Origin: Natronorubrum daqingense
Lineage (GTDB): Archaea > Halobacteriota > Halobacteria > Halobacteriales > Natrialbaceae
Assembly: GCF_001971705.1 (NCBI RefSeq)
Contig: NZ_CP019327.1
Coordinates: 372,001 to 436,000, forward strand
DNA: 64,000 bases
Reading direction: 5' to 3'
The position numbers and the translations under genes were made by a program. Positions 40,399-60,378 of the stretch are shown here, in pieces (position 1 is the first letter of the stretch; each line of letters starts with the position of its first letter). A model generated the notes under the pieces. The model did no database searches. It was not told the DNA's origin and saw only the letters and a list, made by a program, of their open reading frames with translations.

Positions 40399-41171
40399 GA
40401 TACTGTTCATTTCAGCACCTCTCAGCTGGCGTTCGACCATCGAGCGCTTGATTCGGCCGATCGTGGTTATAATGGTGTCTGAAGCGTCTGAGCCAGAGGC
40501 GTGCACTGGCCGGACTGCGCTGCCGGAAAGATTGAAAACGGTCGATCCCCATCAGACGGTCTGTAACAACTTTTTTACGTAGTTTTGAACTATAGTCGAG
40601 CTGACCGCTCAATTCGTGGCGAGTAAGGGCAGTTAGATAGCCGCCAGCATCAACGAGAATCTCTGACTCATCATATCTTGTTTCGCGATGGGTCGATGCA
40701 GGAACGCCGCCCCAGGGTCAATCCCGTGACGGCTGAACACGTCGATTCCGAGCAGTAGTTTCGATTCTGTGTCGATCGCGAAGTACGTCTACTTCTTTTC
40801 GCCGCCGACCTCGGTCTGTTTCTCGTCGACTGCGACCCGCGACGGCTCCGCTGGTCTCAGAACGTTTCCTTCGCTAAGCTCTCGCAGACATCCGTGGGTC
40901 ACTCTGAGCCTCCGAAAGCTTGTGCGTCCCCCTCCAAATTGCGGTATGAGAACGATTGACAACAAGTAATTTGAACACTGAGACGAACTCCCGAACTGAC
41001 AATTCTGACGAATGCAGTCGCACCTCAAATACCCTGACGGGTGTCGGGGTGCGCTTGTTCTCCCAAACTCACCACAATCCACGTCTAAGGCCTTTCTGAG
41101 CAAGTTAGCAAGTTGTACGAGTACTTCTCTCCACCACCCGCTCATTCCTCAAACCCTCATCTAAACAGTGC
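40399..41171 (-). mobile_element. decayed IS6-like insertion element
   Basis: About 773 bases, the size of an IS6 element. The transposase is recognisable but broken (see the pseudogene). Candidate ends share an ACTGTT core: GATACTGTTC at 40399-40408 and, inverted, GCACTGTTTAGATGAG at 41171-41156. They match in about 10 of 16 positions, so the exact ends are uncertain, and no target duplication is visible. Confidence 0.5.
40412..41127 (-). pseudogene. IS6-type transposase pseudogene
   Basis: Read on the minus strand, successive frames give LLRKALDVDCGEF; then PTPVRVFEVRLHSSELSVRE, VFKLLVVNRSHTAIWRGTHK; then AEPSRVAVDEKQTEVGGEKK-stop (TAG where Trp is expected), TYFAIDTESKLLLGIDVFSR; then LVDAGGYLTALTRHELSGQL; and finally RLWLRRFRHHYNHDRPNQAL with DGRTPAERC-stop. 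At least three frameshifts and one stop break the DDE integrase-core protein. Two of the acidic residues (VAVDE, LVDAGG) survive in separate frames. It cannot make an active enzyme. Confidence 0.8.
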
Positions 41172-59432: not shown

Positions 59433-59483
59433 TCGATTGACAGCCTGATAGCCTCACACTACTTCGAAACTATCGGACCCGAG

Positions 59484-59661
59484 AACACCACGAAAGCCCC
59501 TGTCGGCCTCCAGTCGAAGGGCTCGCTGTGCTCCTCGGACTTCGTCCTGCGGTGCTTGCGTCGCCCGTCTTCCCGGAGGCCGACAGCCCCTTTCATTCCC
59601 ACCCGCGGTGGCACGACCGGCCAGCCGGTACTGGTGGGAATGAAAGGGCTTTCGTGGTGTT
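59484..59661. repeat. 178-bp compound palindrome
   Basis: Outer arms AACACCACGAAAGCCC (59484-59499) and their exact complement (59646-59661), 16 bp. Inside, hairpin 1 pairs CTGTCGGCCTCC (59500-59511) with 59575-59586, 12 bp, and hairpin 2 pairs CCCTTTCATTCCCACC (59588-59603) with 59633-59648, 16 bp. All three stems are perfect; hairpin 2 overlaps the right outer arm by three bases. It lies in a gene-free region between acyl-CoA synthetase and rps15. It could be a structured RNA or a non-autonomous IS200/IS605-type element (PATE). Confidence 0.9.
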
Positions 59662-59850
59662 TGCGGGACAGTAACCGACGCTCGAGGATCGTCTGCTCTC
59701 GAGGACCATCTGGGAGGTTCGAGAATTCGCCGATTCCAGTCTAGAAACCCTTTAGTCCGTTCGAGAGAGACGACACAACGGGAAGCGCACGGCCGCAAAT
59801 CTGACGGCGCCGTCCACTCTTTCGGACGGCTTGGGATTGCGGAAGTGCAC

Positions 59851-59910: not shown

Positions 59911-60378
59911 ATGGCACGAATGCATACCCGCCGCCGAGGCTCGTCCGGATCGGACAAGCCAGCGGCAGACGAACCGCCGGAGTGGAGCGACGTCGACGCC
60001 GAGGAGATCGAATCTCGCGTCGTCGAACTGGCAGAGCAGGGCTACGAACCGAGCCAGATCGGAATGAAGCTGCGTGACGAAGGTGTCACGGGCACGCCGA
60101 TTCCCGACGTCAAACTGGCCACCGGGAAGAAGCTCACGACGATTCTCGAGGAGAACGACGCGACGCCCGAGATTCCCGAGGATCTGTACAACCTGATGGA
60201 GCGCGCAGTCCGCCTGCGCGAGCACATCCAGGAGAACCAGCAGGACTACCAGAACAAACGCGCCCTGCAGAACACCGAGTCGAAGGTCCGCCGTCTCGTT
60301 CAATACTACCGCGGTGACGAACTCGAGGCGGACTTCGAGTATTCCTTCGACGTTGCGAAAGAGATCGTCGACGAGTAA
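59911..60378 (+). CDS. rps15: 30S ribosomal protein S15
   Basis: 155 residues from the ATG at 59911 (MARMHTRRRGSSGSDKPAAD), the standard archaeal/eukaryal S15 start. The body contains VVELAEQGYEPSQIGMKLRD, YNLMERAVRLREHIQENQQD and SKVRRLVQYYRGD. It binds 16S rRNA in the small-subunit platform. First gene of a four-gene run with recJ-like, pcc1 and rps3ae. Confidence 0.96.
   Translation: MARMHTRRRGSSGSDKPAADEPPEWSDVDAEEIESRVVELAEQGYEPSQIGMKLRDEGVTGTPIPDVKLATGKKLTTILEENDATPEIPEDLYNLMERAVRLREHIQENQQDYQNKRALQNTESKVRRLVQYYRGDELEADFEYSFDVAKEIVDE

Follow-up and report, generated by a model that had tools for sequence, protein, structure and literature searches.

A covarying palindromic repeat upstream of rps15 in Natronorubrum daqingense, probably a member of a REPIN- or SMR-like interspersed element of Halobacteria

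The palindrome found upstream of rps15 in the 64,000-nucleotide stretch of Natronorubrum daqingense DNA analyzed here (the window) belongs to a family of non-coding palindromic repeats that are abundant and interspersed in Halobacteria and that, with a probability of about 0.7, resemble REPINs and small mobile repeats (SMRs) in being selfish, a function that we infer. A complete element would consist of two imperfect hairpins of ~115 nt placed head-to-head on either side of a ~30-bp spacer, with AACA(C/G)C..GAAAGCCCC as its termini. According to the mechanism that we propose, the hairpins would fold as single strands and be recognized in trans, polymerase template switching would keep the arms complementary and flip them, and transposition would depend on IS6 transposases in part of the lineages and on some other enzyme in the rest. 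A repeat that covaries strongly, extends across the class and matches nothing in Rfam or in the searched papers would represent an unrecognized major part of haloarchaeal intergenic DNA. The copies of the family also serve as natural replicates in which template-switch inversion and arm homogenization can be measured in archaea, and the question that it puts is what recognizes the fold.

The preliminary description reported a compound palindrome with three perfect stems, and our analysis recovered the same arms and coordinates (Table 1): outer arms pairing perfectly over 16 bp (91% over 22 nt when extended), a first hairpin stem of 12 bp and a second, likewise perfect, of 16 bp. Folded as RNA, the palindrome reaches −106.6 kcal/mol, compared to a mean of −69.0 for shuffled sequences (z = −8.05; 0/200 shuffles as low). 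The region between positions 59433 and 59777 is indeed gene-free and is flanked by an ORF coding for an AMP-binding acyl-CoA synthetase and by the S15 leader and rps15. The three stems correspond to one unit of the family and to a collapsed, inverted second unit; in other words, the window copy is a pair made up of an intact left unit and a collapsed right unit. The left unit scores 112.5 bits (E 9.5e-25) against covariance model R1 using cmsearch, this unit being one of the 50 training sequences of R1. Judging from its sequence, the right unit would have lost its hairpin by slippage between the GGGGC direct repeats on either side of it. The copy in the sister genome G003 fits such a deletion, since it retains exactly one GGGGC where the hairpin is gone. 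Units collapsed to GAAAGC(C/T)CC..CCCCTTTCAGTCCCACC, in which the hairpin has also disappeared, were observed at four other loci (L027, L052, L114 and L132) and parallel the right unit of the window.

Table 1. Position of the palindrome components and of the downstream neighbors in the window
Feature	Position	Strand	Description
Left outer arm AACACCACGAAAGCCC	59484-59499	+	Family terminus AACA(C/G)C, then GAAAGCCC of the unit
Left unit, intact	59492-59606	+	Matches covariance model R1 in full (positions 1-121)
Stem X, 5′ arm	59500-59511	+	Variable, covarying helix 2; first hairpin stem
Distal left hairpin	59512-59574	+	Helices 3 and 4; internal-loop motifs TCGCTG / CTTGCGTC conserved, apical loop variable (alignment A2)
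Stem X, 3′ arm	59575-59586	+	Variable, covarying helix 2; first hairpin stem
Second hairpin stem	59588-59603 / 59633-59648
Inner arm of left unit, CCCTTTCATTCCCACC	59588-59603	+
Spacer between inner arms, 29 bp	59604-59632	.	Orientation reversed at the orthologous site of sister genome G003
Right unit, head-to-head, collapsed	59633-59653	−	GGTGGGAATGAAAGGG-CTTTC
Right outer arm GGGCTTTCGTGGTGTT	59646-59661	−
S15-Halobacteria ribosomal leader	59778-59848	+	Neighbor outside the element; Rfam RF03143, 74.4 bits
rps15	59911-60378	+	ORF downstream of the S15 leader

The family unit, of ~115 bp, runs from GAAAGCCCC through the variable and strongly covarying stem X, a distal hairpin with conserved internal loops and the complementary strand X′ to GCCCCTTTCAGTCCCACCC. 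Covariance model R1 matches 102 of the 117 Halobacteria genomes searched (a per-genome count of 30 in this search means at least 30), so that copies do exist elsewhere in haloarchaea. In a sample of 197 genomes covering the phylum, 28 have matches and all of these are Halobacteria, none being found outside this class. The host genome itself contains four matches; two are strong and cover the full length. Among the identities suggested in the preliminary description, a new structured family, whether of RNA or not, is the one that stands: most Halobacteria genomes contain copies, the stems covary strongly and the internal loops are conserved. A distant DNA search recovered related intergenic sequence in 37 plasmid records, of which all named ones are haloarchaeal, and a 17-base pattern derived from the right end has matches in at least 120 stretches, nearly all haloarchaeal; the unit is absent from the bacterial contigs matching this pattern (e.g. 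L069 and L070), which we attributed to chance. No Rfam covariance model matched the palindromic element above its gathering score, one representative query gave no match in a phage collection, and no description of the repeat or of its sequence was found in the main texts of the freely accessible papers covered by our search.

Units occur singly or as head-to-head pairs. Neighboring units located within 300 bp are head-to-head in 23 of 23 cases, with a gap of 20 to 44 bp in 22 and of 222 bp in one. The core of the unit, like the inner arms, is conserved across genera and the outer sequence varies by lineage, with the terminus AACA(C/G)C kept at positions −8 to −3 in 167 copies. Further small palindromes are inserted in the distal hairpin of many units (L265, L291, L292, L048, L121 and L133), for example of the CGAGAGAGC..GCTCTCTCG and CTCACGGGCC..GGCCCGTGAG types, which is reminiscent of the targeting described for SMR-A in Haloquadratum.

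The family shares traits with known repeats. Small mobile repeats SMR-A (HqIRS42, HqIRS43 and HqIRS55) and “SwitchRepeats” have been described in Haloquadratum walsbyi (PMC3119063). Like the ~115-bp unit, the Haloquadratum SMRs are haloarchaeal, measure ~110 bp and have prominent inverted ends matching no known transposon, and like the window copy they show no visible target duplication. Compared by description only, SMR-A has been reported from one species and inserts into PATE palindromes, whereas the unit is present in most genera sampled, has a conserved multi-helix architecture and forms head-to-head pairs. The family is also similar to REPINs, which are REP doublets forming hairpins (PMC3116915), in that it comprises inverted doublets of a palindromic unit together with singlets and is non-coding, mostly extragenic, multi-copy and non-autonomous; the uniform orientation of neighboring units (23/23) is the one that defines REPIN doublets. 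Unlike REPINs, whose REPs are based on 16-mers, the units are ~115 nt long and reside in Halobacteria, and inversions of the spacer and of the whole pair are seen at orthologous sites. A single-sequence TnpA profile, which could miss a distant Y1 transposase, found no RAYT in up to 8 kb per locus.

The fold is supported by covariation. In alignment A2, which includes 120 matches, 96.0% of the 3240 pair cells are standard compared to 71.3% in shuffles, 23 of the 28 pairs exhibit double changes, and the covariation score reaches 0.545 compared to 0.127. When the alignment was slid as a control, pairing dropped to 33-51% and the covariation score to 0.08 or less. A2 was fitted to the covariance model and thus leans towards it; in the earlier MAFFT alignment A1, built from 50 sequences picked partly by their conserved right-end motif, double changes affect 19 of 28 pairs. 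Non-pairing positions are conserved as well, with T.T or G.T in 104/112 sequences and G.G in 68/114. The strong covariation could result in part from template-switch homogenization instead of selection for the fold.

In sister genome G003, which is the nearest to the host, an element occupies the orthologous site with its 29-bp spacer inverted: 26 of the 29 positions are identical to the window in inverted orientation and 13 in forward orientation (0/5000 shuffles as good). The inner arms were altered together, both reading CATTCCC in the host and both CAGTCCC in G003. A different site, this one in genus g45, has the whole pair in one orientation in G110 and G070 and in the opposite one in G100 (scores of 169 versus 90, and of 175 versus 107). 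Clear inversions are limited to these two, one of the spacer and one of the whole pair; a third candidate for spacer inversion at site B (L269 versus L286 and L305) was dropped given its ambiguous alignment. Arm homogenization combined with spacer inversion is the published signature that polymerase template switching leaves at short inverted repeats (PMC8604942), documented there in Saccharomyces cerevisiae genes and observed here in a repeat family. In the eight other genomes of the host's genus that were examined, the 620 bp preceding rps15 contain no unit; several of them have a different upstream gene and are therefore not clean empty sites. The stem of the left unit at site A in G070 is identical to that of the left unit at site E (CGCTCGCTCGAC), and G110 has another stem at site A (L265, L285, L272 and L287). 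On sequence grounds, units may have been exchanged between sites.

Some related copies are carried by IS6-type elements. Several pairs of g45 have GGYGGTGTTTAG at their ends and are enclosed by direct repeats of 8 bp, of which CACCGGAT, GAAAGAAT and ATCGAGGA are perfect and two others match at 7 of 8 positions, as judged by eye from the flanks. An insertion sequence of the same genus has GGYGGTGTTTAG ends and encodes an IS6-family transposase (NF033587), and for one insertion the orthologous sites in G070 and G100 are devoid of the pair, with a diverged junction sequence. In QS/QH Halobacteriales, single units lie between GGTAGTGTTCAGATA-like and GGTGGTGTTCAGATA-like ends, which are IS6-like, and one of them is flanked by the 8-bp repeat GGCCGGAC. 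In these two lineages the unit or the pair thus lies inside IS6-like terminal repeats with, in the clearest cases, the 8-bp duplications that characterize IS6-family MITEs. The flanks of the window copy contain neither IS6 ends nor a visible target duplication that would indicate how it arrived. A broken remnant of an IS6-family transposase, in two pieces and below the family cut-off, is located elsewhere in the window (40666-41065, minus strand).

The main rivals of the selfish-element reading are that the unit is passive cargo or an RNA gene. As cargo of IS6-family MITEs, the unit would have no role of its own and would have spread only as internal sequence, the ends having decayed in most copies including that of the window. 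This interpretation is consistent with the IS6-like ends in two distant lineages, the 8-bp duplications and the element-free sites, and with the four IS6 transposase genes found above cut-off in the host, with GGCASTGTCTAGTT ends. However, IS6-like ends were detected near only 13 of 111 units using a loose pattern, the right-hand part of which occurs at 0.4% of control positions, the window copy and most others being without such ends; moreover, different genera share a conserved core but differ by lineage in the outer sequence, and we consider passive carriage unlikely. If the unit were instead a gene for a non-coding RNA, and a mobile one, transcription of its G-rich strand (5′-GGGTGGGACTGAAAGGGGC-hairpin-GGGGCTTTC) would yield a structured RNA, pairs giving rise to two divergent transcripts from the spacer. 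The strong covariation with conserved internal loops points in this direction, as do the mismatches of stem X (A.C 27 versus G.T 8 in 71 non-redundant stems, p = 0.002), which favor G.U wobbles on the G-rich strand. Helices 1, 3 and 4 combined trend the opposite way (A.C 7, G.T 16), so that no firm conclusion on RNA can be drawn from this bias; with no Rfam match and no recurring neighbor gene either, an RNA gene seems rather improbable to us. More speculative still is the proposal of a mobile structured RNA, or single-stranded DNA, that has a trans-acting protein of its own and is distributed across most Halobacteria on different transposon frames. On this view, the hairpin might be joined to a quadruplex formed by the four conserved G-tracts on one strand (GGG, GGG, GGGG and GGGG), and the inversion of the spacer might act as a switch.

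Inversion of the spacer at the window site and of the whole pair at another, together with inner arms conserved across genera, could also suggest site-specific recombination, the spacer being an invertible switch and a recombinase acting on the inner arms. We find this very unlikely given that template switching explains the concerted arm changes without a recombinase (PMC8604942) and that no recombinase gene recurs near units. The preliminary description, relying on a resemblance of the stem to right ends of IS200/IS605 elements, envisaged a PATE or an orphan omega-RNA. The element does have hairpins, small size and no transposase in common with PATEs and IS200/IS605 elements, and its window copy is without target duplication. 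Of the seven long TnpB ORFs in the host genome, most terminate in a hairpin of the usual ...CC-TTCAG-GG...GGGGAGGATGTCA type and none is followed by GGTGGGAATGAAAGGG, which does not support the resemblance. TnpB was detected in 3 of ~125 loci (up to 8 kb around units); in none of them does a unit follow its 3′ end, where a TnpB omega-RNA would be located, and the same neighborhoods yielded one IS200-type TnpA, using a single-sequence profile that could miss distant Y1 proteins. The inverted outer arms of 16 to 22 nt are also incompatible with PATEs, which are defined as devoid of terminal inverted repeats (PMC3119063), and derivation from IS200/IS605 elements appears extremely improbable. Equally hard to credit is a hairpin that regulates the flanking genes locally, whether as a transcription terminator, as an attenuator or otherwise. 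The intergenic position between two genes would suit it, but units are found at unrelated loci, 11 of 120 lie inside called genes, and the orientation of the surrounding genes (divergent 30, tandem 47, convergent 24) is near the background share of intergenic bases, thus unbiased; a terminator or promoter role was rejected on this account.

No gene family recurs beside units except at apparently shared sites. On several Natrialbaceae plasmids, units are located ~500 bp upstream of related genes (L005, L006, L008, L026 and L192), two of whose proteins gave only a sub-threshold OB-fold match; these loci are possibly one conserved plasmid region. A topA-like gene lies near units in six loci (L042, L116, L124, L135, L176 and L191), some of which may correspond to one ancestral site.
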